Below are positions 47,317 to 57,414 of a DNA stretch of 64,000 nt, in pieces; the first letter of the stretch is position 1, and the number at the start of each line of letters is the position of its first letter. The stretch is from assembly GCA_913020445.1 (NCBI GenBank), contig CAJWAR010000008.1, forward strand, positions 38,475 to 102,474. Direction: 5' to 3'. This stretch comes from an uncultured Rhodospirillaceae bacterium (GTDB lineage: Bacteria; Pseudomonadota; Alphaproteobacteria; Rhodospirillales; UBA2165). Under the pieces are notes generated by a model. It did no database searches and was not told where the DNA came from. It was given only the letters and a program-made list of their open reading frames with translations. The translations under genes were made by a program, and so were the position numbers.

Positions 47317-51101
<3,785 letters not shown>

Positions 51102-51105
51102 TTAG

Positions 51106-53238
51106 CTACTTACTGCTCAATTCGAAACTGCCATCCCAGTTTTCCGGCGGCACGGTGAGAAGGTTCAAGCAGCGTTCCGACATCACCGCCGATACCCGAT
51201 CTCCAGCTATTAAGGTTTCAAAGGTGACGCGGGCCATTGAAAAATCACCCAGCCGGTAGAGCGCCAGCGCTTTTTCATATTCTTCTTTAAGTGTTTTTTT
51301 GTCGGCGGATACCTCCTCGGGTGCGCCAAGAGGTTCAAAAACCGAGATTGCAGACTCGCGGCCTATGACAACAATTGAATCCAATTCCCTGAATAAAATT
51401 GACGAGCCACAAAGTTCCACCGTGCGTTCGCCAACCATGATCTCCGAGCCATAAAACTTATTGGCGCCCTCAAGGCGAGAACCCAAATTGGCGGCATCCC
51501 CCATCGCCGCATAGGTAAAGCGGCGGTGCGAGCCGATATTTCCGACCAGCATTTCACCGCTGTTAACACCAGTCCGCGCTGCTAGTTTGCGGTCCGACGG
51601 CAGGCCAAACGCGCCCTGCATCTGATTGAGCCGCGCCTGACAGGCCAGCGCCGCTTGAACGGCATGTAGAGCATGGTCTGGATCATTCATCGGTGCGCCA
51701 AAGACCGCCGTGATTTCATCGGCGACGAACTTTTCAATAAAGGCGCCATGGGATTCGAGAATGTCCGACATTTCAGTGAGATAATCGTTTAAGAATGTGG
51801 CGACCTCACTGGCGCTTAGATTTTCTGAAAGGGCAGAGAAACCGGCAATGTCGGAAAACAAAATAGTCACCTCTTTGGCCTCGCCGCCCAGGGTCGGCAG
51901 AGTTTCACTGGCGGTCATTTTTTCAATAATGGCCGGCGGCAGATAATAAGAAAAAACCTTTCTGATGTAACGCTTGTCCCTATCAGATACTGTAAACCGA
52001 TAACCCAGTAACAAAGCGAAAGTCAGAACAGCCGCGAGAATTGGGTCAAACAGCGTTACGGCAAATCCACTATCAAAAACCGCAGTCGCCAGCACCAGCC
52101 AAAGCAATCCCAAACCCGTTGCTAGAATTCCTGCTCTAATGGGTGGAAAACTCAAGGTGAAAAAGGCCACAAAAAGCGCCATGACAAAGATGATTGCTGC
52201 GTTGCTCGTGTTGGAAATTTCGTTCAAGGCGTCGTTGCGCAAGATATTGTTAACCGCTGTTGCATGAATGAAGACACCAGGAATCGAGTTCCGTACCAAT
52301 TCAGGCCGATAAATTTCTTTTGCTATCGGATGGTGACAGCGTGTTCCATGGGTAAAGTTTTCCGGCCCGGTGATAAACCGCTTGGAAGTGAGGCGGCGGT
52401 CTTCCTCATCCAGCGCAGTGCCGATGAGCACGACTTTGTCTTTGAAAATTTTCGCCAGGAAGTCCGTATCACCTTTTTGGATGCAGGCAAAAATATCAGC
52501 GAAGGAATAGGCAGGTATCGCCTGACTGCCACCGGCGAAATTCAACGTCATTTGATTTTTAATAGTACCGCGCACCACCGTGTCACCAAGCTTTAAAGCG
52601 CCGGCAGGTATGATTGTCGGCGTTTGTTTTGAGGCTCGCGCGGCCAACTCAACCGCCATGACCGGCTCCAGGCGCCTGCCTTGCTTTAAATCATCCGCTT
52701 GAACCGTGAGCGGGAGGTGCCGGATAATACCATCACGATCTTCATCAATATTAACCACCCGGATGTTTTTCTGATGACCGACGGCAAAACTTTGACCTGG
52801 ATGCGGGGCTATTGGTTTTGCCTGATGCTGGACTTTGCCGAGCACAAGTTTGTTCTGCTGACTGGTTCGGCGCATCGCGATCAAAAGGTCGCGGTCAAAG
52901 CCCCTGATATATTTTTCCACTGAGGTTGGTAGAATGATATCCAGGCCAATGACTTTCGCCTCAGATTTTGTCAGTGCAGTGATAATCTGGGCGAGTTGTT
53001 TACTCCACATCACTTTGGGGAGGTCACGAAACGGCTCCCGGCGATAGGTTTCTTCATCAATCACTATCACTGCAGTTGGGGATTTTGCTGCATCAATCTG
53101 GGGCTTAAATAACACCTGCCGCAGCCAATGCAGGCTATCGAGTGAAAGACCATGCAGGCGGTCGGTCGCCGGTGTCATTAACGCTGCTGTTGAAATGACA
53201 GCAGCTACCAGCCCGGCAAGAAAAGTTTTGTTGATCAT
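51106..53238 (-). CDS. CHASE2-domain class III adenylate cyclase
   Basis: N-terminal CHASE2-like extracytoplasmic region (VIVIDEETYRREPFRDLPKVMWSKQLAQIITAL), three C-terminal TMs, then VTILFSDIAGFSALSENLSASEVATFLNDYL, EKFVADEITAVFGAP, RRFTYAAMGDAANLGSRLEG. Confidence 0.92.
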   Translation of the reverse strand: MINKTFLAGLVAAVISTAALMTPATDRLHGLSLDSLHWLRQVLFKPQIDAAKSPTAVIVIDEETYRREPFRDLPKVMWSKQLAQIITALTKSEAKVIGLDIILPTSVEKYIRGFDRDLLIAMRRTSQQNKLVLGKVQHQAKPIAPHPGQSFAVGHQKNIRVVNIDEDRDGIIRHLPLTVQADDLKQGRRLEPVMAVELAARASKQTPTIIPAGALKLGDTVVRGTIKNQMTLNFAGGSQAIPAYSFADIFACIQKGDTDFLAKIFKDKVVLIGTALDEEDRRLTSKRFITGPENFTHGTRCHHPIAKEIYRPELVRNSIPGVFIHATAVNNILRNDALNEISNTSNAAIIFVMALFVAFFTLSFPPIRAGILATGLGLLWLVLATAVFDSGFAVTLFDPILAAVLTFALLLGYRFTVSDRDKRYIRKVFSYYLPPAIIEKMTASETLPTLGGEAKEVTILFSDIAGFSALSENLSASEVATFLNDYLTEMSDILESHGAFIEKFVADEITAVFGAPMNDPDHALHAVQAALACQARLNQMQGAFGLPSDRKLAARTGVNSGEMLVGNIGSHRRFTYAAMGDAANLGSRLEGANKFYGSEIMVGERTVELCGSSILFRELDSIVVIGRESAISVFEPLGAPEEVSADKKTLKEEYEKALALYRLGDFSMARVTFETLIAGDRVSAVMSERCLNLLTVPPENWDGSFELSSK

Positions 53239-53241
53239 GTA

Positions 53242-53940
53242 TTAAAGTTGAATCAGTCTTTGTAAAAGCGAGATGCTCTTTTCTTCCGCTAAGGGATCAA
53301 CCGAGAACACGATACTTTTACGGCCGGCCTTGAGACGGTACAGGCCGCCCGGACTCAGTTGAATATTAAGCTTCGCAAAGTCACTAACAGTGCCCTGGAC
53401 TTTTACCGCCAAGGGCCTGCCCTTTTTATCGAGACGCACGACGTTGATCTCAGATACTTTGGTCGATAAGGAAACAAAAGGCGTCGTGCCATAAATCGTA
53501 ATCTGAGACCGTGGTAAATTTGATGGTGCGCCCGGCTTGGCGCGGAAAACCGTTACGGCACTGCCCGATCCTTTGGCGGTCATATTCTGTAAATTACCGC
53601 CATCGCACTCAACCCGTTCGCGGGTAACTTTGCCGCCGAGGACCACGCTTTGTTTTTGGCCAATCGTAACTTTGCCGCCAATTATTGATTCACGGATACA
53701 GCTTTGCAAATAGCCAATGATAAGGCGATTGCCGGCGCCGATTTCGATTTGTTTCCCGGGTATGAGATAGTCCATAAATTGGACCGATTTTGTTGAGCCC
53801 GAAACATCTTCGACAATTGCCGATGGCGTGTCTGCTGCCTCAGAGTTTGAACTGAAAACAAAAAACATGGCCAGAACGGCTAGTGACAGGAGGTATAACT
53901 TGATTCCTGCCGATGGTGGCGCACCATTATCTTCTATCAT
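53242..53940 (-). CDS. FecR-like exported/membrane-anchored protein
   Basis: N-terminal TM/signal, 'AIVEDVSGSTKSVQFMDYLIPGKQIEIGAGNRLIIGYLQSCIRESIIGGKVTIGQ' FecR-like beta region. Confidence 0.6.
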   Translation of the reverse strand: MIEDNGAPPSAGIKLYLLSLAVLAMFFVFSSNSEAADTPSAIVEDVSGSTKSVQFMDYLIPGKQIEIGAGNRLIIGYLQSCIRESIIGGKVTIGQKQSVVLGGKVTRERVECDGGNLQNMTAKGSGSAVTVFRAKPGAPSNLPRSQITIYGTTPFVSLSTKVSEINVVRLDKKGRPLAVKVQGTVSDFAKLNIQLSPGGLYRLKAGRKSIVFSVDPLAEEKSISLLQRLIQL

Positions 53941-54084
53941 GCTTAAACCAATATATCTTCAAACAACCTTGAATTTAAATGTATCATAGGACTAATTGTT
54001 ATCGACCATCAAATGGTTTTACCTCCGTCCCCGGTTGAGATAGGCAATATACGACTGGGAATTACGTCAACTGGACATTGGCAT

Positions 54085-56472
54085 TTATTTTCTTCTGACA
54101 AATAGGAAGTCTCCACCGTCATGGCCAGCCCGGCGGACGTCAGAGTATTGCGGCGTCTGATCAGCATTAACCATAACCGGACGGCGGATCGCATTGAAAA
54201 GTTTAGTGCCATCAATGACGCTGTTGTTTTTGCTCAGGGCGCTCAGGAAGGCCCGGGCAAACGGAGAGTGCTCGCCTTTGCCGTCTTCCACTGGCTCCAA
54301 ACCGCCCGAGGTAATTACCACCCGCGCTTTTTTACGTGACATTTGCTGGTAATACTCAGCTGAACTAGCGTTCTCAATATTGACGTTGGCGGATCGCACC
54401 AAGCGTCCGGAATAGCAACTGTCCGCCACCACCATGACATGCTTGGCCTCTAACGCCGTTAAGGTATCGGTCAGAGTGGAGTTGGAAACCCAGCGGGAGC
54501 GGCGGTTCTTTTTAGCATCAATCGGCAGCCAATAGCCCTGGTCGGATTTTTCATTGAGCCAGCCGTGACCGGCATAATAAATCAATAGATTATCTTTGAA
54601 GGTAAGCGAGGCCTGAAGGTCATCCATGGTATCGAGCATCTGATCGCGGGTTGGATTTATCAGTTCGGTTACTTCGAAGCCGTAGTTGTCTTTCAACTCT
54701 TTGGTTACCGCTTTGGCATCCGCCACCGCTGTTTTTAAGCGTGGCAAATTGCGATAGGCATCGATACCGATGACCAGCGCATGATACTTGCCGAATTTGA
54801 TGTTAGCGATGGTCGATGTAGCGCTGGCCGGTACGGCGCCGAAAATCCTATCGAGGATCGCTTTCTTGCGGGCTTGGAATTCCTTTTGGTCGATCAAACC
54901 GGATTTAGCGATCTGTTTAAGCTGTTCGATTTCCGGTGGTAGATTTGACCGCGCCGCGACCTGGCGTGACTTTGCCTTCTCCCGCCGCTTGTCCTCCTCG
55001 AACTTGGCTAAACGCGCTTTTTGCTCGGCCAATGCCGCGGTTAACCGCTCGGTGGCTTGACGTTCCGCCGTTAGCTGGGCACTCAGCGTTTGGTCTTGTT
55101 GTTTGGCTTCCAGAGCGGCTTTCTTAGCCTTGGCTTGGGCCACCAATTTAGCCAACCGGTCAACCTCCTGCTTCTCGCTTTCCAATTTGGCGTGTTCCGC
55201 GTCCTCTTTCGCTTTCAATTGCGCCGCCTGTCGCTTCCAGTCACCGAGCCGAGCCAGCTTGACGGTGCCCGAACAACGGCCAAAATCGGAACTCCTGCCG
55301 TTGTCACCGTAGAAATAACCATCGAAACCCTTATCAGTGAAACGCCCTTTCAGACGAACTTTTACATTGTCTCCGATACCGGTAATCGGCAATTCGGCGT
55401 ATATCAGCGCATCGGCGTTCGACCCGACCTTTCCTTGGAAGTTATGTTGGGTATTGCCGATTCGGGCCTGCCCGGTAAAGCTCCCACCACTGACCGCGGC
55501 GCGTAATTCCTGGCGCTCGAAAGAACATTCCTCGCCGGCGCTGGCGATTATTTCGCCGCCCCATTTACCTTCAATCTGATCCGGTTTAAGAGGCGTTTGT
55601 TTGGCTGCTGCCACTGCCGCAAGTTGCTGTTTGTGACGATCAGAACCGATGCGCGTAAGTTGCAGTGTGCCTGCACAAAAGAAATGTGCTTTGGCAGGGC
55701 CAAAAGTAGCGTCAAATCCTCCATCGAATGAATCTGGTGCAAACTGGCCGGAAAATTTGAAATCTGGATTATATGGCCTTCCTTTCCCTGTAATAATATC
55801 TAACCGCTGCCATTCCGAGAATTCCCCGGCCGCATTAATTTTTCCGGTAAGTTTTTTTAAGGAATTTGCGTTCCTAATTGCCAGCGTTAATTCATTGTTT
55901 TTGACCACGACGGACTCAATGATAAGTTCGGCTGAACAGCTGCTGTCATCATCAAACGCGATTTTCCCTGTCCACTTGCCGTCTATCTTATCGGGATCAA
56001 ACGGTGCACGTTTGGCCGCCGCTGCCGCGAGTTGTTGTTTGTGGAGATCAGAATCAATACGGACAAGTTTTAACCTGCCGGTACAAACAACACCTCTGTA
56101 ACCAAAGTTCGCAAAAAAACTACCATCGAAGGAATCAGGTTCAAACTGGCCGGAAAATTTGAAATCTTGACGATGTGATATTCCCATCTCAGTAACAAAA
56201 TCTAACGACTGCCATTCCGAGAATTCCCCGGCGGCATCAATTTTGCCGGTAAGCGTTTTTAATGAATTTTCATCCCTAAATACCAGCGTGAATTCATTGT
56301 TTTTGACCACGGCGGACTGAATGCTAAGTTCGGTCGAACACCTGCTATCATCATCAAACGCGATTTTGCCTGTCCATTTTCCATCCCAATTATTTTGCGC
56401 AGCGAGAGGATCGGGCGCAAATACCGAAAAAACCAATGTCAAAAGGATGAGATAGGCAATTCGTCGACGCAT
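54085..56472 (-). CDS. Secreted caspase-like (peptidase C14) protein with three N-terminal beta-rich repeats, coiled coil and SHOCT-like segment
   Basis: Signal peptide MRRRIAYLILLTLVFSVFAPDPLAAQ; YYAGHG (His, 54562-54576) and ADSCYSG (Cys, 54406-54423) catalytic motifs; repeats of D/GKWTGKIAFDDDSxCSxEL. Confidence 0.92.
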   Translation of the reverse strand: MRRRIAYLILLTLVFSVFAPDPLAAQNNWDGKWTGKIAFDDDSRCSTELSIQSAVVKNNEFTLVFRDENSLKTLTGKIDAAGEFSEWQSLDFVTEMGISHRQDFKFSGQFEPDSFDGSFFANFGYRGVVCTGRLKLVRIDSDLHKQQLAAAAAKRAPFDPDKIDGKWTGKIAFDDDSSCSAELIIESVVVKNNELTLAIRNANSLKKLTGKINAAGEFSEWQRLDIITGKGRPYNPDFKFSGQFAPDSFDGGFDATFGPAKAHFFCAGTLQLTRIGSDRHKQQLAAVAAAKQTPLKPDQIEGKWGGEIIASAGEECSFERQELRAAVSGGSFTGQARIGNTQHNFQGKVGSNADALIYAELPITGIGDNVKVRLKGRFTDKGFDGYFYGDNGRSSDFGRCSGTVKLARLGDWKRQAAQLKAKEDAEHAKLESEKQEVDRLAKLVAQAKAKKAALEAKQQDQTLSAQLTAERQATERLTAALAEQKARLAKFEEDKRREKAKSRQVAARSNLPPEIEQLKQIAKSGLIDQKEFQARKKAILDRIFGAVPASATSTIANIKFGKYHALVIGIDAYRNLPRLKTAVADAKAVTKELKDNYGFEVTELINPTRDQMLDTMDDLQASLTFKDNLLIYYAGHGWLNEKSDQGYWLPIDAKKNRRSRWVSNSTLTDTLTALEAKHVMVVADSCYSGRLVRSANVNIENASSAEYYQQMSRKKARVVITSGGLEPVEDGKGEHSPFARAFLSALSKNNSVIDGTKLFNAIRRPVMVNADQTPQYSDVRRAGHDGGDFLFVRRK

Positions 56473-56553
56473 AATAGCCTCCAGGACGAATGGTGCTGTA
56501 TCTTAATGTGAGTATCGCATTATTCAGTATTTTATTCAAATCTAGAGCAAAAG

Positions 56554-56573
56554 TATGTGAAATGGTTCACATA
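56554..56573. promoter_or_regulatory. CRP-type binding site, perfect 20-bp palindrome
   Basis: TATGTGAAATGGTTCACATA = TGTGA-N6-TCACA with 8-bp perfect arms; centred about 91 bp upstream of the caspase start codon. Confidence 0.85.
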
Positions 56574-56592
56574 TAAGCAGAAATATTAATGT

Positions 56593-57300
56593 TCATTTCA
56601 AGCCGCTTTCTTCATCTTTGATCAATTGCCCTAAGGCTTCCGCCTGAAGGATGGAAATTTTACCGCGGCTGAGGGCAATCCATCCTTCATTGGTCCAATT
56701 TCGGAGATATTTATTGATACTTTCCCGCGATACACCCATCATTTGTCCGAGCTCAGACTGCGAGACTTTCAGTACATCTGACGTATCGGCTGAATCCAAT
56801 TGATTGGCATATTTGGTGAGATTTAAAAGCCGTTTTGCCAGCCGAGGTCCAAGACTAAGAAAAGCCGTGTCTTCGACTATTTCACTGGTTTTGCGCACCC
56901 GGTCACATACCATATACAAAAGATGGATAGCTAAATCCGGTTCTTCCTTCAATAAATTCAGGAAATCCCGCCGTTGTATGCAAAGCAGCTCAGTTGGTGT
57001 CATCGCCGTTGCATCGGCCGTCCGTTTTTTACCGTCCAGCAAAGCGATCTCTCCGAACATGTCACCCGGATATAAGATATTGAGATTGATCTCTTTACCG
57101 GTTGGCGCACTGGCACTAATGCGGATACAGCCAGACAAAACGCCATAAAGTGCATCGCCGTCATCGCCTTTAACAAACAGGCATTGGTTTGCCGCTAATT
57201 TGCGCGTTACGCCAAGTTTTGCGATTGGTGCGATTAACGCCGGATCAAGGTCACGAAACAGAACGTTTCCCTTTAATAGGTCCAGTTTGTCGATGGCCAA
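56593..57300 (-). CDS. Crp/Fnr family transcriptional regulator
   Basis: FGEIALLDGKKRTADA (cyclic-nucleotide pocket) and HTH VSQSELGQMMGVSRESINKYLRNWTNEGWI. Confidence 0.93.
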   Translation of the reverse strand: MAIDKLDLLKGNVLFRDLDPALIAPIAKLGVTRKLAANQCLFVKGDDGDALYGVLSGCIRISASAPTGKEINLNILYPGDMFGEIALLDGKKRTADATAMTPTELLCIQRRDFLNLLKEEPDLAIHLLYMVCDRVRKTSEIVEDTAFLSLGPRLAKRLLNLTKYANQLDSADTSDVLKVSQSELGQMMGVSRESINKYLRNWTNEGWIALSRGKISILQAEALGQLIKDEESGLK

Positions 57301-57351
57301 TGTTTTATCCTCCCCAAACCCACAATAATCTTAAAATGGTGAATTGGGCAG

Positions 57352-57386
57352 AAAAAAAGACGGCCCAGATTTTATCTGTAGCCGCC
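57352..57386 (-). terminator. Rho-independent terminator after atpF (minus strand)
   Basis: On the minus strand GGCGGCTACAGAT-AAA-ATCTGGGCCGTC followed by TTTTTTTC. Confidence 0.75.
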
Positions 57387-57414
57387 TCTAAATTAGGTAC
57401 CCTGTTAAGCTTGC

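Follow-up and report, generated by a model that had tools for sequence, protein, structure and literature searches.

A putative envelope-sensing cAMP relay with a predicted exported caspase as output in an uncultured Rhodospirillaceae bacterium

A relay in which a CHASE2 cyclase signals through cyclic adenosine monophosphate (cAMP) to a CRP-family regulator is known from Sinorhizobium meliloti, where clr (smc02175), cyaD1 (smc02176), smc02177, encoding a small FecR-domain protein, and smc02178 form one chromosomal cluster (PMC5498481). Both smc02177 and smc02178 are Clr targets, the SMc02178 protein is periplasmic, and the targets of Clr are activated by cAMP (PMC5498481; PMC13001267). Here, we describe a locus of the same kind on a 64,000-nucleotide stretch of DNA from an uncultured Rhodospirillaceae bacterium (hereafter, the window). 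Its four adjoining minus-strand genes encode a CRP-type regulator, a predicted exported caspase, a small protein that is likewise predicted to be exported, and a class III nucleotidyl cyclase with a CHASE2 domain. In our judgement, the locus fairly likely acts as a cAMP relay that senses an envelope condition, has an exported caspase as its output and probably feeds back positively. The kind of relay is known from S. meliloti, and the caspase output is new. The initial annotation of the window knew of no described system with exactly this combination; the idea does have a precedent, the relay encoded by the clr-cyaD1-smc02177-smc02178 cluster (PMC5498481).

As in the CyaD1/Clr relay, a CHASE2 cyclase and a CRP regulator are clustered in the window with a box-bearing target that is exported, here by prediction. 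The output in S. meliloti is SMc02178, which has no known activity and is not a protease, whereas that of the window is a caspase; the S. meliloti strains surveyed by others were devoid of metacaspases (PMC3501461). The Clr binding site is GTNNCNNNNGNNAC (PMC10127613). A site of this type is absent from the window promoter, and the box present there, TGTGAACCATTTCACA, does not fit the Clr core but fits TGTGA-N6-TCACA. Moreover, the S. meliloti neighbour contains a FecR domain (PF04773), which was not matched by the small protein of the window, and S. meliloti has the outer-membrane receptor NsrA, whereas no NsrA-type barrel is encoded between ligA and the atp operon, the interval that was examined. 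On pSymB of S. meliloti, a CHASE2-type cyclase also adjoins a FecR-domain protein. Because the type of site and the FecR domain differ, the window locus is not a member of the S. meliloti relay, though it would work alike.

A fusion of a metacaspase with CHASE2 has been reported from Trichodesmium (PMC3501461). The window caspase has the same fold and the same His/Cys dyad as the prokaryotic metacaspases/orthocaspases (C14), but here the protease and CHASE2 are separate proteins. The terms "cyclase", "CRP" and "adenylate" are absent from the text of the published survey of metacaspase operons (PMC3501461).

The open reading frames of the window placed the four genes exactly at the coordinates first noted (Table 1), with ligA (which ends at 51101) on one side and the atp operon, closed by a terminator-like hairpin, on the other. 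The gene order and borders given by the initial annotation were thus confirmed, and so were the identities of the CRP-like regulator, the caspase-like protein and the CHASE2 class III cyclase, all of which gave Pfam matches above the cut-offs and retain their key residues. The caspase matched Peptidase_C14 with 90.7 bits (cut-off 21.4), and its caspase domain spans residues 564-778. The dyad formed by H636 and C686 is intact, as expected of a C14 caspase/orthocaspase, and the region of the catalytic His aligns with MALT1. The domain is preceded by a predicted signal peptide, N-terminal repeats and a SHOCT-like segment that scored below the cut-off. The hydrophobic N-terminus fits export, so that the secretion proposed for this protein at the outset is probably correct.

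The cyclase matched CHASE2 (111.6 bits, cut-off 26.3) and Guanylate_cyc (71.1 bits, cut-off 21.9). An N-terminal transmembrane segment is followed by CHASE2 (residues 17-356), a cluster of transmembrane segments (~341-418) and the cyclase domain (454-629). Residues D463, K503, D507, N584 and R588 are present, and the metal-binding Asp pair (D463 and D507) and the catalytic Asn and Arg (N584 and R588) are invariant in 8 relatives, as is characteristic of class III cyclases. The closest solved structures to the cyclase domain are adenylate cyclases; the putative product is cAMP, possibly cyclic guanosine monophosphate (cGMP). The nearest named genome is the metagenome-assembled genome (MAG) Rhodospirillaceae bacterium SI053_bin87 (L101), the cyclase homologue of which is 85% identical. 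A second CHASE2 cyclase gene of the window genome (G000), on contig C29 (L036:6678-8930), is broken by a TAA stop and is perhaps a pseudogene or the result of an assembly error.

The regulator matched cNMP_binding (88.1 bits, cut-off 27.5) and HTH_Crp_2 (54.7 bits, cut-off 27), and its matches in the PDB include Mycobacterium tuberculosis CRP, S. meliloti Clr (7pza) and Escherichia coli CAP. In the alignment with E. coli CRP, the cAMP-contact residues G83-E84, R93-T94 and T138-S139 are kept. The recognition helix retains the R-E of CAP, whereas CAP R185 is replaced by Lys. The CAP-like TGTGA-N6-TCACA box is also retained, but in the form TGTGAA-N4-TTCACA and with few exact sites in the genome. 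The protein thus combines the cyclic-nucleotide-binding domain, the Crp-type helix-turn-helix and the cAMP-contact residues of a CRP/CAP regulator with a CAP-type box near its proposed target.

The small protein had initially been described as a FecR-like exported protein. Its hydrophobic N-terminus fits export, but the FecR assignment was rejected at the level of sequence: Pfam gave no PF04773 match at E values up to 5, and hhalign returned a probability of 0.5% when the protein was compared with 14 FecR domains of related genomes, combined into a profile. The structure search did not rescue it either, as the AlphaFold model (two beta domains, with a predicted local distance difference test score of 80) had no significant match in the PDB. 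We regard it as a predicted exported protein of two beta domains, from an as yet unnamed family whose members pair with CHASE2 cyclases, and refer to it as the partner.

Table 1. Features of the locus and of its upstream border, in window coordinates.
Feature	Position	Strand	Basis
CHASE2 class III nucleotidyl cyclase, 710 aa	51106..53238	(-)	Pfam, residues
Exported small partner of the CHASE2 cyclase, 232 aa	53242..53940	(-)	No Pfam family; not FecR by sequence
Predicted exported caspase (peptidase C14), 795 aa	54085..56472	(-)	Pfam, catalytic residues, N-terminus
Putative core promoter TTGAAT-17-GATACT	56511..56539	(-)	Block common to two caspase promoters of the sister species (G008); tentative
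CRP box TGTGAACCATTTCACA, perfect TGTGA-N6-TCACA palindrome	56556..56571	(-)	Letter match; kept in G008
CRP-type transcription regulator, 235 aa, TTG start after GGGGAGG	56593..57300	(-)	Pfam, PDB matches, E. coli CRP alignment
Terminator-like hairpin and T-run at the end of the atp operon, upstream of crp	~57350-57390	(-)	Letters read directly

In the mechanism that we propose, an envelope condition would be sensed in the periplasm by CHASE2, probably together with the exported partner, and the cyclase would then make cAMP (possibly cGMP). The cyclic nucleotide would bind the CRP-type protein, which would activate transcription from TGTGAA-N4-TTCACA boxes. One such box would drive the caspase gene, and read-through would carry transcription on into the partner-cyclase pair, which would make the loop a positive one. 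Further caspase paralogues of the window genus would be under the same box, so that the CRP would command a small caspase regulon. Substrates of the caspase may be envelope proteins or peptides, and its role may be remodelling or self-lysis. We infer that the regulator activates rather than represses and that caspase, partner and cyclase are cotranscribed.

The same set of domains might suggest phage defence or abortive infection on the Pycsar or caspase model, and the locus did match the Pycsar cyclase and caspase models of PADLOC. These matches, however, reflect the generic cyclase, cyclic-nucleotide-binding and caspase folds. No TIR or membrane effector is encoded at the locus, and Pycsar is defined by a pyrimidine cyclase with a cyclic-nucleotide-gated effector of this sort; furthermore, the caspase begins with a predicted signal peptide, the cyclase has a periplasmic sensor, and the CRP is a transcription factor. 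The neighbours, ligA and atp, are housekeeping genes and do not form a defence island. We rejected this reading as very improbable.

Between crp and the caspase gene are 120 bp, and these contain the box TGTGAACCATTTCACA, which is found 21 bp beyond the stop codon of crp and has its centre 91 bp before the caspase start. The pattern TGTGAA-N4-TTCACA is expected 0.01 times per 64-kb window (dinucleotide shuffles), and TGTGAACCATTTCACA is its single exact copy in the whole 4.2-Mb window genome, in which exact TGTGA-N6-TCACA sites number only 4. The sister species (G008) keeps the box perfect and at the same position. All three exact copies of TGTGAA-N4-TTCACA in G008 (contigs C116, C164 and C275) are located 53-83 bp upstream of caspase starts, and a copy with one mismatch precedes a fourth caspase-related gene (C37). 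Likewise, a one-mismatch copy is found before a second caspase-related gene of the window genome (C80). The congeners G002 and G006 lack a CRP of the window type; they possess caspases, and the scan of their genomes found zero exact TGTGAA-N4-TTCACA sites. All genomes of the window genus are draft assemblies, in which contig ends cut some of the caspase genes. The window genome contains at least 5 further caspase-related genes (C101, C27, C94, C80 and C2), a lineage-specific expansion. In G008, a caspase gene fragment on contig C142 (L078:3-1309) is convergent with two small single-domain cyclic-nucleotide-binding proteins, which suggests another association of caspases with cyclic nucleotides in the genus.

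The block TTGAAT-17-GATA(A/C)T follows the box in the three caspase promoters that could be aligned (C8, of the window, and C116 and C275 of the sister species). With this block as the core promoter, the box centre would tentatively sit near -60, in the geometry of class I CRP activation; an alternative -10 element (AATAAT) scores equally, which makes the promoter geometry tentative. The placement of the core promoter is thus soft, and CRP proteins are capable of repression. The sign of regulation could accordingly be the opposite, with CRP repressing the caspase gene and a loss of cAMP relieving it, in which case the circuit would act as a safety catch and not as an amplifier. We consider this quite unlikely, because the box precedes the block at a clear distance in all three promoters, and class I activation usually involves a position near -60. 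In S. meliloti, moreover, Clr activates its direct targets (PMC5498481).

Other genera and families possess orthologues of the regulator that are 50-60% identical to it. A box of the same kind accompanies several of them: directly before the orthologue's own gene, it is perfect in L057, L058 and L059 and has one mismatch in L049, L050 and L056. In two genomes of a sister genus (G020 and G010), TGTGAA-N4-TTCACA boxes stand before or beside class III cyclase genes (L066:6625, L067:6576 and L071:6609). Taken together, the own-gene boxes and those at the sister-genus cyclases support the pairing of regulator and motif and tie the regulator to cyclase genes. One of these cyclases in G020 and G010 is part of a SAM-cyclase-ATPase protein, and behind another lies a gene for an exported protein without an assigned family.

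We then considered how far the arrangement recurs. The four-gene set was sought among 80 relatives per protein, and the cyclase was used to search 317 genomes of the order and a one-genome-per-species collection, with an alignment of closer relatives for the genome scan. The partner and cyclase genes, 3 bp apart in the window, are adjacent in 27 alphaproteobacterial genomes, including Bradyrhizobium, Tagaea and Azospirillum. In 9 of these 27 genomes, the pair has a clan-CD protease gene as its neighbour, which in 8 of the 9 is placed directly upstream on the same strand; the counts of both pairs and proteases ignore kinship, and the search design is biased towards relatives of the window cyclase. 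The neighbouring protease is a caspase in the window, G008, G032 (divergent), L103, L104 and L108, and a CHAT protein in L104, L113, L114 and G102. At control loci around CRP orthologues, caspase or CHAT genes were found in 0 of 14. At a few cyclase loci (e.g. G106, G247 and L115), the partner was hidden by contig ends or not found.

Upstream of the partner-cyclase operon, 10 of 24 loci carry, within 200 bp, a CRP box that has no more than one mismatch; the boxed Bradyrhizobium loci are related to one another, and some operon starts were set by eye from the signal peptide. Over 200 rounds of dinucleotide shuffling, the number of such boxes averaged 0.085 and reached 2 at most, and neither of two control motifs occurred. 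The boxed operons belong to the window genus, Tagaea and its relative, SI074_bin10 and Bradyrhizobium. In Tagaea sp. CACIAM 22H2 (L104:4724-9937), CHAT, a perfect CRP palindrome, caspase, partner and cyclase stand in a row; the caspase gene overlaps that of the partner by 4 bp, and the centre of the box is 72 bp before the caspase start. Judged from its sequence, the Tagaea locus is an independent version of the window operon. The occurrence of boxes before the partner-cyclase operon in unrelated alphaproteobacteria argues for cAMP-CRP feedback on the cyclase, and the positive feedback that the initial annotation had proposed thereby gains in silico support. Its proposal that CRP switches on the caspase, "FecR" and cyclase genes agrees with the conserved box at the caspase and with the boxes at pair operons elsewhere, but not in the identity of the middle protein. 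In Azospirillum (plasmids, L126-L129), the operon has a homologous partner (39-41%) and cyclase (40-42%), adjacent as in the window, and it differs in that a gene for a ShlB/FhaC two-partner-secretion barrel follows the pair, there is no caspase, and no CRP box was found upstream. The barrel gene raises the possibility that sensors of this type receive input from a component of the outer membrane.

Several observations weigh against the relay that we propose. Among the genomes searched, all four genes occur together only in the window genome and in G008, both of which are MAGs. The 144-bp gap between caspase and partner genes shows no terminator-like hairpin on the coding strand, but it contains a weak promoter candidate, and for this reason cotranscription of the two is not certain. 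No box lies upstream of crp itself in the window genome, nor before the caspase paralogues on C27 and C94. A perfect box of the TGTGAT type, TGTGATCTAGATCACA, precedes a FAD (flavin adenine dinucleotide)-oxidase-like gene and is identical in both species (L073:6445 and L065:2802), which makes it improbable that the CRP serves caspases exclusively. Other CRP/FNR proteins might also read the box.

These points can be read in another way, namely that the CRP is a general cAMP regulator with a partly coincidental neighbourhood, the caspase is one of its scattered targets, and the pair is independent, with a promoter of its own. The conserved box at the FAD-oxidase-like gene and the weak promoter candidate before the partner gene agree with this explanation. 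Elsewhere, the CRP orthologues stand beside unrelated genes, for thiamine pyrophosphate enzymes, a trypsin/PDZ protease and an acyl-CoA dehydrogenase. The pair is alone in most genomes, and in G006, a third species of the genus, it directly follows the atp operon, without crp and caspase, an arrangement in which these two genes behave as a removable unit. Coincidence, however, does not easily account for the CRP boxes before the pair in unrelated lineages, the same-strand caspase or CHAT gene directly upstream in 8 genomes, or the Tagaea overlap with its perfect box, and we find this explanation rather unlikely. Nevertheless, the idea of a complete, self-contained locus has to be narrowed: the parts are all present, but they are not exclusive to it, as G006 has the pair without CRP and caspase, and the CRP apparently serves caspases elsewhere. 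Similarly, co-occurrence, which had been named as a check on the original proposal, extends to the pair (27 genomes) and, in 9, to an adjoining caspase or CHAT gene, while the full set is confined to two species.

The function and trigger of bacterial caspases are a long-standing question, and no description of a bacterial caspase controlled by cAMP-CRP was found in the literature searched. The window locus and its relatives offer a concrete proposal, in which a periplasmic CHASE2 sensor would act through cAMP-CRP on the transcription of caspase genes. If true, bacteria would have a caspase pathway under cAMP control, and in the window genus its regulon would comprise several caspases. More tentatively, a CHASE2 cyclase, its exported partner and a clan-CD protease (caspase or CHAT) under a cAMP-CRP box may constitute a recurring alphaproteobacterial unit, through which cAMP would amplify its own sensor and deploy an exported caspase. 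From the recurrence of the box before the pair, CHASE2 cyclase circuits that amplify themselves may well be widespread among Alphaproteobacteria, with Bradyrhizobium and Tagaea as examples, and the S. meliloti relay would thereby gain a wider family.

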